A DNA stretch of 64,000 nucleotides from Methyloversatilis sp. XJ19-49 (GTDB lineage: Bacteria; Pseudomonadota; Gammaproteobacteria; Burkholderiales; Rhodocyclaceae). The stretch is from positions 112,183-176,182 of the forward strand of contig NZ_JANINI010000006.1 in NCBI RefSeq assembly GCF_024580145.1. The letters run 5' to 3'. Below, piece after piece: positions 5,380-47,036 of this stretch (position 1 is its first letter; each line of letters starts with the position of its first letter). Under the pieces are notes generated by a model. It was given only the letters and a program-made list of their open reading frames with translations, was not told where the DNA came from and ran no database searches. The position numbers and the translations under genes were made by a program.

Positions 5380-5395
5380 AGCAACTGCCGTGCCA
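5380..5395 (-). promoter_or_regulatory. Sigma54 -24/-12 promoter of nifHDK
   Basis: The minus strand reads TGGCACGGCAGTTGCT, an exact match to TGGCAC-N5-TTGCT. Transcription should start near 5369, leaving a leader of about 140 bases before the nifH ATG. Confidence 0.9.
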
Positions 5396-5607: not shown

Positions 5608-5639
5608 GTATGCCTGCATCAACACGCGTACCCGATACC

Positions 5640-6107
5640 ATGGAAACCCGCCCGCCTGCATACAAGCCTGTCGCTCCCTCCGTCAGCTCAGCTTCTTCCG
5701 GCGGCAATCCCCACTTCGAGCGCATCGGTGGCGAAGCTGCGATCGAACGTCTGGTCCAGCGCTTCTATCACCACATGAGTACGCAGCCGGCGGCGGCCGG
5801 CATTCGCGCGATGCACTCGGCCGACCTGCGGTCTGTGCGCCAGATACTGGTGAACTATCTGGTCGAGTGGACCGGCGGTCCGCAGCGCTATTCGACCGAG
5901 CGCGGCCATCCTCGGCTGCGCCGCAAACACCTGGCATTTCCGATCGGCACCGCCGAACGGGATGCGTGGATGGACTGCATGCGACAGGCGCTGCAGGAAG
6001 TCGTAGACGATGCCGCGTTGCGGCAGCAGCTTGAGCAGGCTTTTTTCAAGACCGCGGATTTCATCCGCAATGATCAGGGGAACCACCATGAGCATCACCA
6101 TAGCTAG
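5640..6107 (+). CDS. Group II truncated haemoglobin
   Basis: A 155-aa 2/2 globin (GlbO type) that binds O2 or NO. The core starts at HFERIGGEAAIERLVQRFY, with the Tyr of helix B. The proximal His lies in RRKHLAFPIG and the group II helix-G Trp in RDAWMDCM. The ATG at 5640 is preferred over 5610, which would fall inside the likely promoter. It overlaps the next gene by 20 bases, so translation is probably coupled. Divergent placement from nifH with a shared NifA site suggests expression during nitrogen fixation; O2 or NO handling for nitrogenase is an inference. Confidence 0.88.
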   Translation: METRPPAYKPVAPSVSSASSGGNPHFERIGGEAAIERLVQRFYHHMSTQPAAAGIRAMHSADLRSVRQILVNYLVEWTGGPQRYSTERGHPRLRRKHLAFPIGTAERDAWMDCMRQALQEVVDDAALRQQLEQAFFKTADFIRNDQGNHHEHHHS

Positions 6108-6681
6108 CTCTGCATTTGCCACGCTGGAAAACGAGAAGCGGATGCTCAACGCCGTCTTCAAGGGGCCGACCCACAAGGCCGATCGTGTCGGCTTCCGCGG
6201 CGACATCGCGCTGAAGTTCGCGCAGCAGTTCGCCGACGAGGCGCGTCCGCCGGAAATCAGCATGGACCAGGTGATTGCCGCCGCGCACGAGGGCGAGCAG
6301 CAGATTCCCTTCCTGACCGGTTTCCTGCTGTCGTTCGAATACCTGAAGCTGCTGGCCGACGTGCTCGGCGACGCGCTGTCGCCGACCGGCAAGTACTTCC
6401 TGTTCTGCGACAACATCGACCTGTCGAAGAAGTACCAGGTGCAGTATGGCGGCGCGACCTTCTACATCCTGCCGATCGACGAGGCGACGGTGTACAACGA
6501 ACTGCTCGAACTGCTGTATCTGGAAAAGACCGAACTGAAGCGGCTCGATACAGCTGGCAAGGTGGATGCCGTGGCCGACGCCGCACTCAAGTTCACCGGC
6601 AAGTTCCCGGAAGTCACGTTCGAAGAGGGCCTGAAGCTGATGGGCCCGATCCGCAACCTGTACGAGAACCGTCCAGTCTGA
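6088..6681 (+). CDS. Unrecognised 197-aa protein coupled to the truncated globin
   Basis: I do not recognise a family. The protein is soluble and acidic, with no signal peptide and no membrane segment. It has one Cys (LFCDNIDLS). A helical half with hydrophobic segments (FLTGFLLSFEYLKLLADVLG) is followed by YGGATFYILPIDE and an acidic helical C-terminus. AGGGG precedes the ATG at 6088. It lies between the globin and nifO on the plus strand, so a role in nitrogenase protection or regulation is possible but unproven. Confidence 0.75.
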   Translation: MSITIASSAFATLENEKRMLNAVFKGPTHKADRVGFRGDIALKFAQQFADEARPPEISMDQVIAAAHEGEQQIPFLTGFLLSFEYLKLLADVLGDALSPTGKYFLFCDNIDLSKKYQVQYGGATFYILPIDEATVYNELLELLYLEKTELKRLDTAGKVDAVADAALKFTGKFPEVTFEEGLKLMGPIRNLYENRPV

Positions 6682-6736: not shown

Positions 6737-7168
6737 ATGAGTCACATCGTCTTCTTCGAAAAACCCGGGTGCGGCGGCAATGCGAAGCAGAAGCAGTGGC
6801 TGCTCGACGCCGGCCATACGCTCGACGTGCGCAGCCTGCTCGCCACACAGTGGACGGAGGCCGCACTGCTGGCGTTCGTCGACGCGCTGCCGGTGGCCGA
6901 CTGGTTCAATCGCGCATCGCCGCGCGTGAAGTCGGGCAGAGTCGTGCCGGAAGACGTCGATCGCGACACCGCGCTCGCTCTGCTGCTGGCCGATCCGCTG
7001 CTGATCCGCCGGCCGCTGCTGCAGGTCGGCGACGAACGCCGGGTCGGCTTTGACCCGGCAGCTATCGACACCTGGATCGGCCTCGACAGTCACGCGGCAC
7101 AGCGCTCCCGCGCACAGTCCGAAGGGTGCGCGGCCGGCATGAACGAAGGCGGTTGTGCAGCACCGTGA
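6737..7168 (+). CDS. nifO: Nitrogenase-associated ArsC-fold protein NifO
   Basis: A 143-aa thioredoxin-fold protein of the ArsC/Spx family. It starts IVFFEKPGCGGNAKQKQWL, where the ArsC-type Cys sits in PGCGGNAKQK, and continues with the DADPLLIRRPLL-like segment (ADPLLIRRPLLQVGDE). In Azotobacter, NifO affects the balance between nitrate assimilation and nitrogen fixation; its biochemical action is not settled. The C-terminus adds two further cysteines (EGCAAG, GGCAAP). It is the last gene of the globin operon. Confidence 0.82.
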   Translation: MSHIVFFEKPGCGGNAKQKQWLLDAGHTLDVRSLLATQWTEAALLAFVDALPVADWFNRASPRVKSGRVVPEDVDRDTALALLLADPLLIRRPLLQVGDERRVGFDPAAIDTWIGLDSHAAQRSRAQSEGCAAGMNEGGCAAP

Positions 7169-7209
7169 TCGGGGCGGTGCGAGCGGAGCAAGCCGGTTCG
7201 ACCACCGAT

Positions 7210-7293
7210 GTTGGGCATCGCTGCGCTCACCCCAACCTACAAACTGCAGATCGGCGCATTCCGTAGGTTGGGGTGAGCGCAGCGATGCCCAAC
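7210..7293. repeat. Inverted pair of REP elements after nifO
   Basis: Copies of the 31-base form lie at 7210-7240 (minus) and 7263-7293 (plus), facing each other across 22 bases, so the pair can form one long hairpin. It sits between nifO and the convergent small gene at 7323. Confidence 0.9.
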
Positions 7294-7322
7294 AATCCCC
7301 TCTCGAAAGAAGTACTGCCCGC

Positions 7323-7490
7323 TCAATCCGGCGTCATGTCAGGCTGCAGGATCACCTCATCCGGCAGCCCGTTGTCGTTGTGCTGCACGTCGATGCCGCC
7401 CAGCGGCGAATACCCTTCATCGCCCTCGATCAGTACCGTCGCATCCGGCGGCAGGGCGCGCAGTTTCTCCATCAGCTGTCCGACATTCAT
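7323..7490 (-). CDS. Small hypothetical protein
   Basis: A 55-aa acidic protein beginning MNVGQLMEKLRALPPDATV and continuing with GDEGYSPLGGID. The ATG at 7490 is chosen because GGAGG lies just upstream; a longer frame to 7535 would run through that site. It diverges from the next gene across about 43 bases. I do not recognise a family. The wording resembles small regulatory or adaptor proteins, but no function can be assigned. Confidence 0.6.
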   Translation of the reverse strand: MNVGQLMEKLRALPPDATVLIEGDEGYSPLGGIDVQHNDNGLPDEVILQPDMTPD

Positions 7491-7533
7491 TGCGGGCACC
7501 TCCTTCTCCTCACGACCATCCTGAGCTCGCGAC

Positions 7534-7809
7534 ATGAATGCAACGATCAGCCGGCAGCGCTACTTCCTGACCTATCGCGGTGTGAAGCTGCCGCTGCAGT
7601 TCGCCGAAGAACTGGCAGCCGACGCGCTGAGCAACCGCAACACCTATTTCATCGCGTCCTACGATGACGCCGGGCGCATGTTGCGTTGCGAGAAGCGGGT
7701 TTACGGCGAAGTCGAAATGAGCCATGTATATGCCTACGGCGACGACGGCCGGCTGGTGAGCGCCTGCATCACCGTAGGTGACGATGAAGCGCAGTGGATG
7801 CATTTCTGA
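7534..7809 (+). CDS. Conserved small protein of nif regions (function unknown)
   Basis: A 91-aa protein with a compact, regular pattern: RQRYFLTYRGVKLPLQF, then NRNTYFIASYDDAGR, then YGEVEMSHVYAYGDDG. It looks like a small beta-rich domain. Similar short proteins occur near nif genes in other betaproteobacteria, and it may be the DUF6156 family, which I recall only loosely. Its neighbours are REP elements and a divergent small gene. Confidence 0.65.
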   Translation: MNATISRQRYFLTYRGVKLPLQFAEELAADALSNRNTYFIASYDDAGRMLRCEKRVYGEVEMSHVYAYGDDGRLVSACITVGDDEAQWMHF

Positions 7810-7819
7810 CGTTCGGATT

Positions 7820-7978
7820 GTTGGGCATCGCTGCGCTCACCCCAACCTACTGTTCGGGGCGGGTGTATGGAGTCCGTGCCGGTCACCGCACCCCAGTAGG
7901 TTGGGGTGAGCGCAGCGATGCCCAACATGCAAGGCATGCACCGGTTCGTAGGTTGGGGTGAGCGCAGCGATGCCCAAC
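7820..7978. repeat. Three REP elements between small nif-region genes
   Basis: 31-base copies lie at 7820-7850 (minus), 7896-7926 (plus) and 7948-7978 (plus). They fill the gap between the convergent genes ending at 7809 and 8002, where they may serve as the 3' boundary of both transcripts. No other feature was seen in 7810-8001. Confidence 0.9.
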
Positions 7979-8001
7979 AACGGCCTGCTCCCGCCGTGCC
8001 G

Positions 8002-8373
8002 TCAATCGGCGCAGGCGGTGAACGCGAACAGCGCGGGCTGCTCTTCGCGGTACACGCGCAGCCACATCAGCGTGGCGGGCGCGAGCGAGCTGACCGCGAA
8101 CCACAGCGTGCCGTCTTGATCGGCCGCTCCTTCCAGCACCCGGCGCGTGACGTCCCAGCCATCCCAGCCCAGTTCCGGCATCCGGCTGCGCGCCTCGGCG
8201 GGCAGCCCGTGCAGGCAGTCGGCGATGATTTTCAAGCGCCCGCACAGCGCACTGCGGGTCAGGCGCGAACGTTCGAAGTCCTCGCGTGCGAGCCCTTCGC
8301 CAAGGATGAGCACGTCGCTGCAGGCCTCTTCGAGGATGGCCAGCGATGCGGCACCGAACAGCGTATCGGCCAA
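8002..8373 (-). CDS. HepT-like (DUF86-type) four-helix protein lacking the RNase motif
   Basis: A 123-aa helical protein. The spacing of LAILEEACSDVLILGEGL, a central LKIIADCLHGLPAEAR and WDGWDVTRRVL recalls HepT/DUF86 toxins, which end in an RX4-6HXY ribonuclease/AMPylation motif. Here the equivalent stretch is RRVLEGAADQ, with neither His nor Tyr, so catalysis is unlikely. No MntA nucleotidyltransferase antitoxin adjoins it. It is the last gene of the nifB operon, three bases after the Cys-rich gene. The fold assignment is by eye. Confidence 0.5.
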   Translation of the reverse strand: MADTLFGAASLAILEEACSDVLILGEGLAREDFERSRLTRSALCGRLKIIADCLHGLPAEARSRMPELGWDGWDVTRRVLEGAADQDGTLWFAVSSLAPATLMWLRVYREEQPALFAFTACAD

Positions 8374-8376
8374 GGC

Positions 8377-8610
8377 TCAGGCGCCGATGCGGTTCTCGAA
8401 GTTCAGCGCTTCGACCTTGCCGACTGCGCCGCACTTCACGCAGCGCCAGGCAGCCGAAAAGGCCTGGCCGGTACAGGCATCGTCGTAGGTCTGGCGGCAG
8501 CCGACCTGTCCGCATTCGCAGCGAAAGGTCTGGCCGTTGCACTTGCCGTTCAGGCCGGTGCGGTTGCCGAGGCACAGGCCGCGTTCGGCCTTGATGAGGT
8601 CATAGCTCAT
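8377..8610 (-). CDS. Small Cys-rich (probable zinc-ribbon-like) protein
   Basis: A 77-aa protein with eight cysteines, mostly paired: FRCECGQVGC, TYDDACTGQ and WRCVKCGAVG. The layout suggests a metal-binding ribbon, but no named family is recognised. It lies between a 2Fe-2S ferredoxin and the HepT-like gene with very short spacers, so it is co-transcribed with the nifB operon. Confidence 0.65.
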   Translation of the reverse strand: MSYDLIKAERGLCLGNRTGLNGKCNGQTFRCECGQVGCRQTYDDACTGQAFSAAWRCVKCGAVGKVEALNFENRIGA

Positions 8611-8642
8611 GGTGTTCTTCCTGTAATCGGTTCTTGAGAGGT

Positions 8643-8939
8643 TCAGACGAAGCTGAGGATTTCCACCGTCACGTTCTCTTCGCCCATCTGGGCCTGACAG
8701 GCCAGGCGCGACTTGGAACTGACGCCGACGATCTCGTCGAGCTTCGCGTTTTCGGCGCGCTGGATCTTCGACAGGCTCTTGCGTCCTTCATTGATGGCGA
8801 CGTGGCATTCGCCGCATTTCGCTTCACCGTCGCACTTGCTGACCAGCTTTTCGCCGGCGGCCAGGATGGCAGCCAGCAGCGTGGTGCCGGCGGCGACTTC
8901 ACGGGTGCGTCCGGACGGCATGATGGTGAGGGTGGCCAT
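8643..8939 (-). CDS. 2Fe-2S ferredoxin of the nif operon
   Basis: A 98-aa plant/adrenodoxin-type ferredoxin. The cluster ligands are visible as SKCDGEAKCGECHVAINEG (C-X5-C-X2-C) and a distal Cys in SRLACQAQ. It probably carries electrons to or from nitrogenase maturation proteins or a reductase. AAGGAG precedes the ATG. It follows the SIR2-like gene and is distinct from the isc fdx at 21.6 kb. Confidence 0.88.
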   Translation of the reverse strand: MATLTIMPSGRTREVAAGTTLLAAILAAGEKLVSKCDGEAKCGECHVAINEGRKSLSKIQRAENAKLDEIVGVSSKSRLACQAQMGEENVTVEILSFV

Positions 8940-8974
8940 GGTGTGCTTCTCCTTTTCTGTGAGGGGGTGGGAAA

Positions 8975-9817
8975 TCAGGCCGCTTCGCTGAGCGGTGCCA
9001 TGCGGGCCGCAAATTCAGCCAGCGACATGTCGATGCGGGTGATGTTCTGTTCGGCCAGAAATTTCGCTTCCATGCGCGTCGGCTCCTCGGACAGCAGCGC
9101 CCAGTGCGTGTCGCTCGAACGCTTCATGATCTGGCGTGCGAAGGTGCGCGTGAGCTGGTCGTTGAAGCGGCAGCCGATGAACAGGAAGTGGCGGCCGGTG
9201 CGCAGCGCCTGGATCTCGGCCGGGATCGGTGTCTGGATGTCGATCTCCGTCAGCACTTCGACATAGTCGGAGTCCGACACCAGGTAGTTGCCGGCCGGGT
9301 TGCTGCTGCCGATCGGCTTGTACAGGATGGTCTGCCAGTCCGGTGTGCGGTCGGGCAGCGGATTGCCGTCGCTGTCGTACCAGCCGGTCCAGGTGCCGAA
9401 GTGTTCGGACTGCGACAGACCCTGCACCTCGCCCCACTTTACGCCGGCCGCCTGCAGCGCCGCCGCCATCGCTTCGTCGTACCAGGTGTCGACGATCAGC
9501 GGTACGCCGAGCGATGCCAGCCAGCTGTGCATGGCCGAGTAGTGCGGCGCCGCGGCGAATGCGGTATTCATCTGGTCGACCAGCGTCTTGCGGTGCTTGA
9601 AGTTTTCGATGAACTGCGCCGCCTGGGTCAGCCGGCCGCGGATCTTGTGCGGCACCGACACCTTCGCCGTGAGCAGCGCAACCAGCGCTTCGGGTGAGCC
9701 CGGCACGGCGTAGTCGGGCACCAGCGACAGCACGTGCTGGCCCAGGTAGGGCACGATGCGGCCTGCGCGCAGGCCATGTTCGAGTTCGGCGGGCAGATCG
9801 GTGAGAGTGCGGGTCAT
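8975..9817 (-). CDS. SIR2-like domain protein with altered active site
   Basis: A 280-aa protein resembling the bacterial SIR2_2 group, NAD-binding proteins often found as NADase effectors. The N-terminal nucleotide loop is GRIVPYLGQHV, where the usual GAG is replaced. The catalytic T-N-Y-D motif reads TWYD (111-114), so the Asn is Trp. The late FLFIGCRFNDQLTRTF segment matches the family's second nucleotide-contact strand. Without the Asn it may bind NAD or ADP-ribose but not hydrolyse it; that is an inference. It lies between the DegT-like and ferredoxin genes. Confidence 0.7.
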   Translation of the reverse strand: MTRTLTDLPAELEHGLRAGRIVPYLGQHVLSLVPDYAVPGSPEALVALLTAKVSVPHKIRGRLTQAAQFIENFKHRKTLVDQMNTAFAAAPHYSAMHSWLASLGVPLIVDTWYDEAMAAALQAAGVKWGEVQGLSQSEHFGTWTGWYDSDGNPLPDRTPDWQTILYKPIGSSNPAGNYLVSDSDYVEVLTEIDIQTPIPAEIQALRTGRHFLFIGCRFNDQLTRTFARQIMKRSSDTHWALLSEEPTRMEAKFLAEQNITRIDMSLAEFAARMAPLSEAA

Positions 9818-9844
9818 GATGGGTCCTCGAGCGATGCGTCGGGT

Positions 9845-10993
9845 TCAGTAGATGGCGGCGCCGGCGCCGACATTGGTCGCCGCGTCCTTCAGCGTCTTCA
9901 CCACGAAGCGAACTTCGTCCTCTTCGATGAAGCCGTGGAAGGGCAGCGCCAGCGAGCGGTCGCCGATGCGGTCGGTGTTCTTCAGCTGGCCGCGTTTGTA
10001 GCCGTACTGCTGGTAGTGGAACTGGTGGTGCAGCGGCCGGCAGTAGGCGGCCACCTCGATCGCTTCGGTGTCGAGGTCCTCGACCAGCTGCGCGCGCGCG
10101 CTCAGCGTGAAGCGCTTGCCCAGATGCACGACGTAGAGCATCCAGTGCACCTCGTCGACATCCTGCGCCAGGTAGGGCGGCTTGATGCCTTCGAAGGTCT
10201 GCATCTGCTGGTGGTACCAGACTTCGACCTGCTTGCGCCGGGCATGGATTTCGTCGATGCGTTCGGCCTGCGCGATGCCGATGGCGGCCGCGATGTCGCT
10301 CATGTTGGCGGCCAGCGGCACGCGGCTGCCGACCGACACCGAGTTACGGTCGGCCAACGCATGCGAGCGCAGGTAGCGCAGTTCGCTGGCGAGCTTCGCA
10401 TCGTCGGTGAGCACCATGCCGCCTTCGCCGCAGTTCAGCGCCAGCGGCTGCGAAAAGTCGAAGATGGACATGTCGCCGAACGTACCGACCAGCTGGCCCA
10501 TGTAGCGCGAGCCGATGGCTTCGGTCGAATCCTCGATCAGCGCGATGGCGTGCCGGTCGGCCAGTGCGCGCAGTTCGGCCCAAGCAGCCGGATGACCGTT
10601 GCAGTTGTTGGCCAGGATGGCGCGCGTGCGCGGCGTGATCGCATCGGCCACGGCCTGCGGCGCGACAGCGCCCGACCAGTAGTCGATGTCGGCCAGCACC
10701 GGCGTCGCGCCGGCATGCACGATGGCGTTGGCCACGTGGTGCCAGCTGTAGGCGCTGGCGATCACCTCGTCGCCCGGGCCGATGCCGAGCGCGCGCAGCG
10801 CCAGCCACGCGCCCATCATGCCGCTCGACACGGCCACCGCGTACTTGCGCGCGTGCAGGTCGGCGAACACCGATTCGAAGGCCTCCACCATCGGACCGCC
10901 GGACAGCCGGCCCGAATCCATGACCTGCGCCACCAGCTGCGCTTCGCGCGCGCCGAGGTCGGCAATCGAAAGAGGAATCCAGTCGCTGTCCAT
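9845..10993 (-). CDS. DegT/DnrJ/EryC1/StrS-family protein without the PLP lysine
   Basis: A 382-aa fold-type I aminotransferase homologue. It keeps SSGMMGAWLALRALGIGPGDEV (start of the large domain) and the PLP-ring Asp in LIEDSTEAIGS near 155. The Schiff-base segment reads FDFSQPLALNCGEGG (178-192); family members have Lys five residues before GEGG, where this protein has Leu184. It probably cannot act as an aminotransferase. It sits in the nif operon between the nifT-adjacent gene and the SIR2-like gene. No sugar-biosynthesis genes are near. Confidence 0.85.
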   Translation of the reverse strand: MDSDWIPLSIADLGAREAQLVAQVMDSGRLSGGPMVEAFESVFADLHARKYAVAVSSGMMGAWLALRALGIGPGDEVIASAYSWHHVANAIVHAGATPVLADIDYWSGAVAPQAVADAITPRTRAILANNCNGHPAAWAELRALADRHAIALIEDSTEAIGSRYMGQLVGTFGDMSIFDFSQPLALNCGEGGMVLTDDAKLASELRYLRSHALADRNSVSVGSRVPLAANMSDIAAAIGIAQAERIDEIHARRKQVEVWYHQQMQTFEGIKPPYLAQDVDEVHWMLYVVHLGKRFTLSARAQLVEDLDTEAIEVAAYCRPLHHQFHYQQYGYKRGQLKNTDRIGDRSLALPFHGFIEEDEVRFVVKTLKDAATNVGAGAAIY

Positions 10994-11007: not shown

Positions 11008-11271
11008 TCAGGGGTTCTGCGTCAGCACGATGCCGTCGGCGACCAGCGGATCGCTGGTCACCGACCAGCAGTGGCCGTCCGTGTGCATCAGGAAGAGGTC
11101 GCGATCGCCGATGCGCAGCGCCGGTGTTTCGCCACGCATGTCGAAGGCGTCGACGGTCGACGCGCGCAGGCCGGGAATCACCCGGCGCACGCCGTCGACT
11201 GCCTCGCGCAGGCTGGCGGCGGCAAGCGTGATGCGCGCCACCTGCGTCAGTTGTTCGGCGTCGAGTCCCAT
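11008..11271 (-). CDS. Small nif-operon protein downstream of nifT
   Basis: An 87-aa protein (MGLDAEQLTQVARITLAA start), with a helical first half and a beta-rich second half (ALRIGDRDLFLMHTDGHCWSV). Its start lies one base after the nifT stop, so the two are coupled. It may be the DUF6129 family, which I recall as nif-associated, but I cannot confirm this. Function is unknown. Confidence 0.7.
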   Translation of the reverse strand: MGLDAEQLTQVARITLAAASLREAVDGVRRVIPGLRASTVDAFDMRGETPALRIGDRDLFLMHTDGHCWSVTSDPLVADGIVLTQNP

Positions 11272-11272
11272 G

Positions 11273-11488
11273 TCAGTCGCGCCCCCCGGTGAGCCGGGCC
11301 TCGACGGTGATCGGCAGCCGCGTGTCGGCCGCCATCTCCGGCAGATCCAGCGTCCAGCCGTTGGCCAGCGTGATCTGGCCGCCCCACATGTCGGGCCGTT
11401 CCATCTGCACGATCGGCTCTTCGAGGTCCTTCTTCGGCACGTAGAGCGACAGTTCTCCCTTGCTGCTCTTGCGGATCATCACTTTCAT
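11273..11488 (-). CDS. nifT: NifT/FixU protein
   Basis: A 71-aa protein with the typical start MKVMIRKSSKGELSLYVPKK followed by DLEEPI and WGGQITLANGW. NifT/FixU is conserved in nif clusters, usually after nifK, but its role is unclear and deletions have mild effects. Here it has moved away from nifK and follows nifS by 32 bases in the nifB operon. Confidence 0.92.
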   Translation of the reverse strand: MKVMIRKSSKGELSLYVPKKDLEEPIVQMERPDMWGGQITLANGWTLDLPEMAADTRLPITVEARLTGGRD

Positions 11489-15723: not shown

Positions 15724-17298
15724 TCATGCGGCGGCCGTGAATGCGCCCTGGCGGATCGATGCGTCGCCGCGCGCCACATGCACCGTCTCGCCGCGTGCGA
15801 CGCGCCCGGTGTAGTCAGCGAACCACGACAGCGCGGCCTTCTCGATGAATTCATCGACGTAGTTGTCGACCGGTTCGATGCCGGCGGTCTTCAGCTCGTC
15901 GCGCGGGCAGGCGCCGATCTTCGACACCAGCACGGCGTGGCAGTCGTTGATCGCGGTGACGATGGACGGCAGCTTTTCGTCTTCGCCGTAGCCGCCCTGG
16001 CAGAACAGGTCCACCCGGCGGTGACCGACGAACAGCGCCTCACCGGCCGACACTTCGAAGATCTGGAATTCGTCGGCGTGGCCGAAGTGCTGGTTCACCC
16101 GGCCACCACCGGTGGTGGCCACAGCGACCAGCACCTTGATGCCGTCGGCGGCACCGGCGTCCTGCGTCGCGGCGAGCGCCTCGACCTTGGCGGCATGCTG
16201 AGCCTGGCGTTCAGCCTCGACGCGATCCTGGTAGCTGCGGCGGCGATCGAGGTCGTACACCACTTCCATCTCTTCGATCTTGTCGAGCGTGAATTCCTCG
16301 CTGCGGTCTTCGCCGAGCAGGCCGACCGCGTCGGCGCGGCACTGCCGGCAATGCCGCATCAGGTTGGCGCCGCCCATGCAGGCGTCCTGCACTGCCTTCA
16401 GTTCCTGCGCCGTCGGGCCGCGCTGGCCGGTCAGGCCGAACACCGTGCCGTGCTCGGCTTCCGAAATCAGCGGCATGATGTTGTGCAGGAAGGCGCCGCG
16501 CTTCTTCACCTCGCGGTTCACCTCGATCAGGTGTTCGTCGTTGATGCCGGGGATCAGCACCGAATTGATCTTGGTCAGCACGCCGCGCGCGGTCAGCATT
16601 TCCAGTCCGAGCATCTGCTGCTGGTGCAGGATGGTCGCCGCCTCTACGCCGGTGACGCGGCGGTGGTCCCAGAAGATCCACGGATAGATCTTGGCGCCCA
16701 CTTCGGGATCGACCATGTTGATCGTGATGGTCACGTGGTCGATGTTGTACTTGCAGATTTCATCGACCAGACCGGGCAGCGCGAGGCCGTTGGTGGACAG
16801 GCACAGCTTGATGTCCGGCGCCTGTTCCTGAAGCATGCGGAAGGTTTCGAAGGTCTTCTTCGGGCTGGCCAGTGAATCGCCCGGGCCGGCGATGCCGAGC
16901 ACCGTCATCTGCGGGATTTCGCTGGCGACCGCGACCACCTTCTTCACCGCCTGCTCCGGCGTAAGCTTCTGCGACACGACGCCCGGGCGCGATTCGTTCG
17001 AACAGTCGTACTTGCGGTTGCAGTAGTTGCACTGGATGTTGCAGGCCGGCGCCACCGCTACATGCATGCGGGCGTAGTGGTGATGCGCTTCTTCCGAATA
17101 ACAGGGGTGATTCTTGACCTTGTTCCAGACGTCGGCCGGCATGTCGTCCGGACCGTCGGAGGTACCGCAACTGGCCTTTCCCTCGCCGCCGGAGGTACCG
17201 CAGCCGGCGTGGGCGGGCGCCTCGACCGGCTCGGCCAGCGCATTGCGGTTGGATTTCAGGGCATCCAGACTGACGTAACTCGCTGCTGCACTTTGCAT
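15724..17298 (-). CDS. nifB: NifB, FeMo-co core synthase
   Basis: A radical SAM enzyme (524 aa) that makes NifB-co, the 8Fe core of FeMo-co. The SAM-cluster cysteines are 86, 90 and 93 (ACNIQCNYC), within a SAM barrel up to about residue 330. [10 protein letters not shown] near residue 310 supplies further cluster ligands. A linker leads to a C-terminal NifX/NafY-like domain ([19 protein letters not shown]). AAGGAG precedes the ATG. It is first in the long nif operon, with a sigma54 promoter 78 bases upstream. Confidence 0.98.
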
Positions 17299-17375: not shown

Positions 17376-17391
17376 AGCCATTTCCGTGCCA
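17376..17391 (-). promoter_or_regulatory. Sigma54 -24/-12 promoter of nifB
   Basis: The minus strand reads TGGCACGGAAATGGCT: a perfect -24 box, correct N5, and a -12 box with one mismatch that keeps the GC. Transcription would start near 17365, about 67 bases before the nifB ATG. I found no perfect TGT-N10-ACA site in 17392-17520, so the NifA site may be degenerate. Confidence 0.78.
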
Positions 17392-46783: not shown

Positions 46784-46808
46784 AGTGCGCCGCTGGGCGT
46801 CGATCGCT

Positions 46809-46984
46809 GTTGGGCTTCGCTGCGCTCACCCCAACCTACAAAAGCATCCGACGGCGGCGTGACGACCCGTAGGTTGGGGTGAGCGCAGCGATGCCCAACA
46901 CCCCAAGGTCACCCACCAGGAGATCTCGCCGCAACGTCCGCTCTGCACCACTCGTAGGTTGGGGTGAGCGCAGCGATGCCCAAC
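46809..46984. repeat. Three REP elements after the SDR gene
   Basis: 31-base copies lie at 46809-46839 (minus, one mismatch: GGGCTTCGC), 46869-46899 (plus) and 46954-46984 (plus). They fill the convergent gap 46784-47036, with no gene seen there. They belong to the family tied to the RAYT at 0.3-0.8 kb. Confidence 0.9.
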
Positions 46985-47036
46985 ATCACCCCGTCATCCC
47001 GCGCGCCCAGGTCGATTACCGCCCCAACCAAGCGCG

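Follow-up and report, generated by a model that had tools for sequence, protein, structure and literature searches.

Why should an operon that opens with nifB end in genes of enzyme families whose products lack residues needed for catalysis? The question is raised by a stretch of 64,000 nucleotides from Methyloversatilis sp. XJ19-49 (contig NZ_JANINI010000006.1, positions 112,183 to 176,182; hereafter the window), in which a DegT-type aminotransferase gene, a SIR2 gene and a [2Fe-2S] ferredoxin gene lie downstream of nifT. An earlier note on this DNA had claimed three pseudoenzymes here; the claim is borne out by sequence comparison for DegT and SIR2, both of which are kept in nif operons, but not for a HepT-like protein. 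The best explanation of the whole, to which we give an even chance, is that SIR2 and DegT are nif-dedicated pseudoenzymes whose role would be that of an adaptor or chaperone, not of a catalyst, helping nitrogenase to mature or to stay stable. Coordinates refer to the whole window, and the operon genes lie on the minus strand. The features in question are:

9845..10993, minus strand: DegT-fold protein, predicted pseudo-aminotransferase without the lysine that binds pyridoxal 5'-phosphate (PLP) (Pfam DegT E = 4.7e-90, alignments, predicted structure)
8975..9817, minus strand: SIR2_2-fold protein, predicted pseudoenzyme with Asn to Trp112 and His to Ile169 (Pfam SIR2_2 E = 8.1e-23, alignments, model, tree)
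9218..9280, minus strand: acidic loop of the SIR2 protein, residues 180-200, SDSDYVEVLTEIDIQTPIP, mostly invariant; putative binding surface
8643..8939, minus strand: adrenodoxin/Isc-type [2Fe-2S] ferredoxin, four Cys kept (Fer2 E = 1.4e-9)

Residue losses in the SIR2 and DegT proteins

By its Pfam match and its SIR2 Rossmann fold, the SIR2 protein groups with SIR2_2 NADases of the ThsA type. SIR2_2 (PF13289) was the sole Pfam match at E up to 1, with no match to the sirtuin (SIR2) family model, and the paired-Cys zinc module of sirtuin deacylases (CobB type) is absent, as the protein has a single Cys, C216. The change of the catalytic Asn to Trp, proposed in the earlier note, holds: the family profile aligns W112 of the window with N112 of ThsA, and a ThsA chain with N112 mutated to Ala appears in the alignment output. 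The catalytic His of the K-x-H-G motif is lost as well, a loss that had been overlooked. Reading K-P-I-G as a change of His to Pro was rejected, as controls with K-P-H-G (L170, L184; L and G numbers are our labels for loci and genomes) place the His at Ile169, with Pro168 adjoining.

The nif-linked SIR2 proteins fall into two branches, the window's being branch 1. We aligned 124 branch-1 rows (122 distinct), 11 branch-2 rows and 25 control SIR2_2 proteins. The controls were picked irrespective of gene neighbourhood from a search that listed further matches; 25 of the 30 loci obtained were used, after removal of L176, L196, L197 and L199 (nif members) and of L193 (wrong frame). Position 112, the catalytic Asn of T-T-N-[YFW]-D, is Trp in 121 and Gly in one of the 122 distinct branch-1 rows, and Asn in all 11 branch-2 rows and all 25 controls. 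The His at position 169 is lost in 116 of the 122 distinct branch-1 rows and kept in six; it is found in 0 of 11 branch-2 rows and in 24 of 25 controls. The branch-1 rows that keep it number seven, from Bradyrhizobium (L141) and the phylum-level loci L143-L148, the latter probably alphaproteobacterial, and two further rows, probably from Zymomonas, combine Trp112 with a retained His. The Ser of the GAGxS motif is Leu30 in both nif branches. A distant open reading frame in G206 (L164, 8954-10357), which by our reading joins a SIR2-like domain to a TIR-like C-terminal part, is weakly similar to nif SIR2 (E = 7e-8) and was excluded from the tally.

These changes speak against NAD or ADP-ribose as the ligand, which the earlier note had suggested. 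In ThsA, the N112A and H152A mutants both lost NAD+ cleavage and NAD+ binding, the authors noting disturbed oligomers for H152A (PMC7272460; for all papers cited by PMC number, statements refer to the parts of the text available), and in the window protein the corresponding Asn and His are bulky residues and the Ser is Leu30. The SIR2 structure was predicted from 57 sequences, window included, picked from the 80 loci with a match, and reached a predicted local distance difference test (pLDDT) value of 83.8 and a predicted template modelling score (pTM) of 0.87, with ThsA, SPARSA, DSR2 and KomC as the best structural matches. Residues 180-193 have a pLDDT under 50 yet are mostly invariant; such a segment, strongly kept although without a confident fold, might be a binding surface.

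The DegT protein has the family model and fold of DegT/DnrJ/EryC1/StrS aminotransferases, with template modelling scores of 0.86-0.88 to ArnB. The structure prediction (55 sequences, window included, picked from 71 loci with a match) gave a pLDDT of 90.7 and a pTM of 0.90; the structures nearest to the model are those of ArnB and perosamine synthase, among them forms whose lysine had been mutated to Ala in the laboratory. The Lys-to-Leu change had been called correctly: the ArnB alignment sets K188 on L184 of the window, and the ArnB K188A chain has Ala there. In the sample of 103 distinct nif-linked rows, 96 cover the site, and the Schiff-base lysine is absent in all 96, being replaced by S (61), G (23), L (9), C (2) or Q (1). 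What we take, from the ArnB structure, to be the Ser that holds the PLP phosphate is Asp (Asp179) in 96 of 96 rows, and the residue presumed to lie under the PLP ring is Glu (Glu158) in 95 of 96. The window genome's other full DegT protein (L001) retains the lysine. Judged by these residues, the nif-linked DegT is a predicted pseudoenzyme that could not hold PLP by a Schiff base, and with all three residues changed the PLP-like ligand proposed for it in the earlier note finds no support. With the pockets themselves altered, we do not favour sensing of NAD or PLP. In Bradyrhizobium sp. BWA-3-5 (L141, 15089-16217) the DegT gene is split over two frames, frameshifted and unannotated, and the SIR2 gene of the cluster is intact.

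Both genes are under purifying selection, with ratios of nonsynonymous to synonymous substitution rates (dN/dS, against four relatives) of 0.12-0.24 for DegT and 0.18-0.28 for SIR2. As the losses are conserved in nif-cluster homologues across genera and purifying selection acts on the genes, the pattern exceeds chance. No nif-linked DegT with the lysine was found; the SIR2 family partly runs the other way, since some members keep one of the two residues, His in the six distinct and two probable Zymomonas rows and Asn in branch 2. In our estimate, neither the SIR2 nor the DegT protein of the window, very probably, catalyses a reaction by the classical routes. The earlier observation is thus partly confirmed and its interpretation partly supported, the evidence now being stronger for SIR2 and DegT and weaker for ligand sensing.

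Of all the parts, only the ferredoxin has an evident chemistry, being by its cysteines a genuine [2Fe-2S] carrier: C36, C42, C45 and C81 are kept in 98-100% of 88 rows, the four-Cys pattern of Isc/adrenodoxin ferredoxins. It matches Isc ferredoxin at E = 2e-12 and gives E = 0.15 against FeSII (Shethna, 5ffi); FeSII-like protection through the ferredoxin was not adopted as an explanation, since its kinship to FeSII reached only this value.

Linkage to nitrogenase genes and two SIR2 branches

Among 300 genomes of one order, 46 had nifH over the cut-off, 48 had a SIR2 match (E up to 1e-5, either branch pooled) and 45 had both. The exceptions were nifH alone in G132 and SIR2 alone in G030, G135 and G161, three of the 254 genomes lacking nifH. 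Twelve weak SIR2 matches (27-29% identity), assigned to branch 2, all came from nifH genomes of the order. For these, nifH lay on another contig in four of 12 (G067, G111, G154, G187), 65 kb away in G281 and 208 kb away in G221. We examined 11 branch-2 loci, seven of the order (leaving aside G067, G111, G154, G221 and G281) and four of the wider set, and nifH or nifB was in the same stretch in 10 of them, the exception, L161, being cut by a contig end. In 398 genomes of the phylum, nifH was over the cut-off in 38, SIR2 was found with the A1 profile in 17, and both were present in 14.

Gene order was compared in 80 named loci, which are the best SIR2 matches and hence mostly betaproteobacterial, many of them cut by contig ends. 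NifT was found in 74, the gene for an 87-amino acid protein in 75, DegT in 71, the ferredoxin in 64, NifB in 62, the gene for a 123-amino acid protein in 29 and a Cys-rich gene in eight. The order NifT, 87-amino acid gene, DegT, SIR2, ferredoxin occurred in 55 of the 80 (31 without and 24 with the 123-amino acid gene). Loci L039 and L040, Methyloversatilis-like, encode SIR2 proteins 99-100% identical to the window's. In Methylococcus sp. EFPC2 (L140) an unknown 93-amino acid gene stands between ferredoxin and SIR2 (8726-9007), and a BolA-family gene follows SIR2 (9860-10129).

SIR2 genes are also found in nif clusters of another layout. Rhizobium etli p42d has nifB, a 4Fe-4S ferredoxin gene, nifZ, nifT and SIR2 in this order, with DegT neither annotated nor matched in the stretch. 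Among plasmid records, SIR2 was found in 75 (E up to 1e-5) and DegT in four, under the stricter limit of 1e-60. Two genomes of one genus, probably Zymomonas, have nifB, 4Fe-4S, nifZ, nifT, SIR2 and nifH. Searches for the Zymomonas homologue were positive in five of seven genomes in the family of G330 and 61 of 298 in that of G480, no named Zymomonas record being among them.

A maximum-likelihood tree was built from 71 rows (35 of the 124 of branch 1, 11 of branch 2 and 25 controls; unrooted). In it the 46 nif rows and the 25 controls part completely, with a support of 100/100; branch 2 is supported by 100/99 and branch 1 by 87/96. Several control rows are long-branched, and by the program's warning their joins could be artefacts, which makes any nearest relative of nif SIR2 in the tree provisional. 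Fourteen residues are common to both nif branches and rare in the 25 controls (P23, Y24, L30, P168, P174, S181, D182, V186, T190, E191, I198, P199, R206 and E250). The loss differs by branch: Asn in branch 1, often together with His, and His in branch 2. These different losses fit a relaxed need for catalysis after recruitment.

A putative adaptor role and its alternatives

We tentatively propose that a large proteobacterial nif lineage domesticated, a single time, an NADase fold of the anti-phage type, which then served nitrogenase as a dead adaptor, with a different route of loss of the two catalytic residues in each branch, and that in many, mainly free-living, diazotrophs it would form a hitherto undescribed complex with the DegT fold and the ferredoxin for maturation or protection. 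A SIR2_2-type fold of the ThsA/KomC/DSR2 kind would have been recruited to nif clusters, most simply once, and would then have lost catalysis; in the window's branch the gene usually adjoins nifT and would be under NifA control. In Rhodobacter capsulatus, the SIR2 protein Rcc03262, beside NifT, was reported at 7.3 fmol in wild-type cells without Mo and at 6.6 fmol in those given Mo; in the nifA1-nifA2 mutant it went undetected (PMC6925177). The SIR2 protein would bind its partner through the conserved acidic loop (residues 180-200). The lineage of the window and many further diazotrophs, most of them free-living, would have gained the DegT fold as a scaffold and the intact ferredoxin as an electron carrier or redox switch, and the role in maturation or protection may be conditional enough to be missed in nodules. 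In Bradyrhizobium ORS278, DegT and ferredoxin genes of the nif cluster (BRADO5411/BRADO5410) are listed among genes exclusive to Nod-independent Bradyrhizobium strains (PMC3899966). Together with the few plasmid records with DegT and its broken state in BWA-3-5, this listing hints that the DegT part may serve free-living fixation.

Several points weigh against this proposal. In the phylum, 24 of the 38 nifH genomes had no A1 match, and around nifH in 14 of those 24 and in G132 two profiles found no SIR2, some of these contigs being short (5-10 kb); given these nifH genomes of the phylum without SIR2, nitrogenase does not need the protein in general. Clusters of nif genes are inherited as units, which inflates co-occurrence. 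DegT is not a fixed companion either, as NifT, the 87-amino acid gene and SIR2 stand without DegT in eight of the 80 loci. In Mesorhizobium loti, the mutant of msi351 (SIR2) was fully effective in symbiosis on the host, and a mutant of fixU (nifT) showed partial effectiveness, its acetylene reduction being unchanged; the nifB clusters of NGR234, S. meliloti and Bradyrhizobium ORS278 and BTAi1 were stated to lack msi351 (PMC3538637). Since ORS278 has DegT and ferredoxin but is said to lack msi351, DegT may do without SIR2 there. No evidence speaks more strongly than this paper's against SIR2 being essential and against DegT and SIR2 being a fixed pair. The rows that keep His, and branch 2, which keeps Asn, leave room for residual or new catalysis, and the binding partner of the adaptor is putative.

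Binding of NAD(H) or ADP-ribose by SIR2, coupling the energy state to the switch-off of nitrogenase by the ADP-ribosyltransferase DraT, is unlikely. SIR2 shares the fold of NAD users, draT and nifH share a stretch with branch-2 SIR2 in six of 11 loci (in L152, draT is directly beside SIR2), and DraT is present in all 12 branch-2 genomes of the order. However, the search, from which G444 was left out, found DraT in only 20 of 33 branch-1 genomes of the order, and the branch-2 genomes G362 and G374, outside the order, lack it; in addition, the NAD-contacting residues are replaced, and the ThsA mutants N112A and H152A do not bind NAD+ (PMC7272460). As a general role, coupling to DraT was rejected, because 13 of the 33 branch-1 genomes, including that of the window, have no DraT.

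New chemistry, for instance a PLP-free reaction in DegT, seems to us equally doubtful. The changed sites are non-random, with Asp179, Glu158 and, in SIR2, Trp112 almost invariant, and some SIR2 proteins retain His; yet the residue at the lysine position of DegT is variable, unlike a replaced catalytic residue, and position 169 of SIR2 is mostly any bulky residue. That the genes are passive passengers, decaying defence-type or sugar genes travelling with nif clusters, is very improbable: the fully effective M. loti mutant and the frameshifted DegT gene of BWA-3-5 would be in keeping with it, but dN/dS is low, dozens of residues are invariant, expression in R. capsulatus depends on NifA, and SIR2 is present in 45 of the 46 nifH genomes of the order. 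The least credible reading is that SIR2 is an active deacetylase whose substrate is acetylated nitrogenase. This was assumed for Zymomonas ZMO1821, which is upregulated under N2 fixation and was taken as a likely deacetylase in an organism with acetylated nif proteins (PMC8600466). Against it, Pfam gives only SIR2_2 matches, the window protein has no zinc-binding Cys pairs, and the catalytic Asn is Trp even in the two probable Zymomonas genomes, although His is retained in these.

Databases label these proteins as SIR2 family and DegT aminotransferase, and the assumption in that paper that SIR2 may reverse nif acetylation was made on this basis. If the family is catalytically dead, this inference falls for most members, and the SIR2 and DegT genes, beside nifT, would come into question for steps still lacking in the assembly or protection of nitrogenase. 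They would then be relevant to the transfer of nif clusters to new hosts as well, in which genes without an assigned role may be left behind.

Operon context and comparison with known systems

The remaining features of the operon are:

17376..17391, minus strand: sigma54-like promoter site (1 mismatch), 78-93 bp before the nifB ATG at 17298
15724..17298, minus strand: nifB, opens the operon (translation; open reading frame from 17328), with relatives in 62 of the 80 loci
11273..11488, minus strand: nifT (PF06988 E = 1.6e-32; TIGR02934)
11008..11271, minus strand: 87-amino acid protein, weakly DUF6129-like (below cut-off), present in 75 of the 80 loci
8377..8610, minus strand: Cys-rich 77-amino acid protein of narrow distribution (translation; 8 of 80 loci)
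8002..8373, minus strand: 123-amino acid protein, labelled HepT-like in the earlier note, membership not established (weak Pfam match)

The operon runs from nifB through genes for a 4Fe-4S ferredoxin, an IscA-type protein, a TPR protein, an LRV_FeS protein, two NifZ-type proteins and a NifS-like protein (the names IscA-type, second NifZ and NifS-like being our reading of the sequences) to nifT, the 87-amino acid gene, DegT, SIR2, the ferredoxin, the Cys-rich gene and the 123-amino acid gene. For the five genes from DegT onward, the coordinates and intact reading frames given earlier were correct. From nifT onward the intergenic gaps are 1 to 35 bases, and between 7200 and 18200 neither a promoter-like site nor a minus-strand terminator-like site was seen; with the sigma54-like site before nifB, one transcript is plausible. 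That site is weak by itself, as the pattern has 8 matches across the window against 2.7 expected; a mismatch-free site lies at 5380-5395, before nifH.

The HepT label of the last gene was not upheld. The protein matches Pfam HepT at E = 0.0043 with 17.2 bits, below the curated cut-off of 23.5, and six of ten family members give only such weak matches; against the PDB sequence list no HepT appeared at E up to 10. The absence of the RX4-6HXY motif, noticed earlier, was confirmed: 0 of 31 rows of the family have it, L067 (out of frame) and L097 (cut) being counted among the rows. The gene is therefore no fair third case. The gene is under purifying selection as well (dN/dS 0.30-0.48, against the same four relatives).

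Elsewhere in the nif region, a nif-linked protein at 6010-6681 (plus strand), for which Pfam gave nothing at E up to 0.01, occurs in 26 of the 80 loci. A relative (30% identical, E = 5e-19) lies beside branch-2 SIR2 in L152 (7715-8272) and L153 and farther away in L156, thus in three of 11 branch-2 loci, so that it accompanies both SIR2 branches. A bacterial-type globin gene (5610-6107, plus strand; PF01152 E = 5.7e-34) lies upstream of nifH on the opposite strand, and 6737-7168 (plus strand) encodes an ArsC-related nitrogenase-associated protein (TIGR01616, 143.6 bits, over the cut-off). A 28-base element (GTTGGGGTGAGCGCAGCGATGCCCAACA, up to 2 mismatches) has eleven copies in the window against 0 expected, clustered at 7209-7979, 77-929 and 46808-46985; five copies stand just behind the operon end, and some form inverted pairs.

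In the literature available, from which subscription journals were mostly absent, we found no account of catalytic loss in nif-cluster SIR2 or DegT proteins, and none of the published nif SIR2 genes is described there as dead or as part of one family with two branches. The parts available of PMC9769520, PMC8305402 and PMC11227200 hold nothing on these genes, and the role of nifT is still called unknown (PMC3538637). ZMO1821 (also in PMC8594446), Rcc03262, msi351, Pseudomonas stutzeri PST_1325, which is listed as adjoining nifH (PMC11332353), and a SIR2-like gene of Rhodovulum have been published as nif-cluster genes of SIR2 or sirtuin-like type; we liken them to the window's gene by their nifT or nifH neighbours or nif regulation, not by named sequence comparison. 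The DegT and 2Fe-2S ferredoxin pair BRADO5411/BRADO5410 in the nif cluster of ORS278 is likened by gene content only, and the msi351-type SIR2 is said to be missing there. The window's DegT protein resembles ArnB and perosamine synthase in predicted fold, with 31-34% identity, and differs from them by replacements at the PLP lysine, at the Ser for the PLP phosphate and at the position below the ring. Compared with ThsA of Thoeris, KomC, DSR2 and other SIR2_2-type NADases, the nif SIR2 proteins have lost the catalytic Asn and/or His and the GAGxS Ser, carry no SLOG or other sensor domain, and are sited in nif operons.

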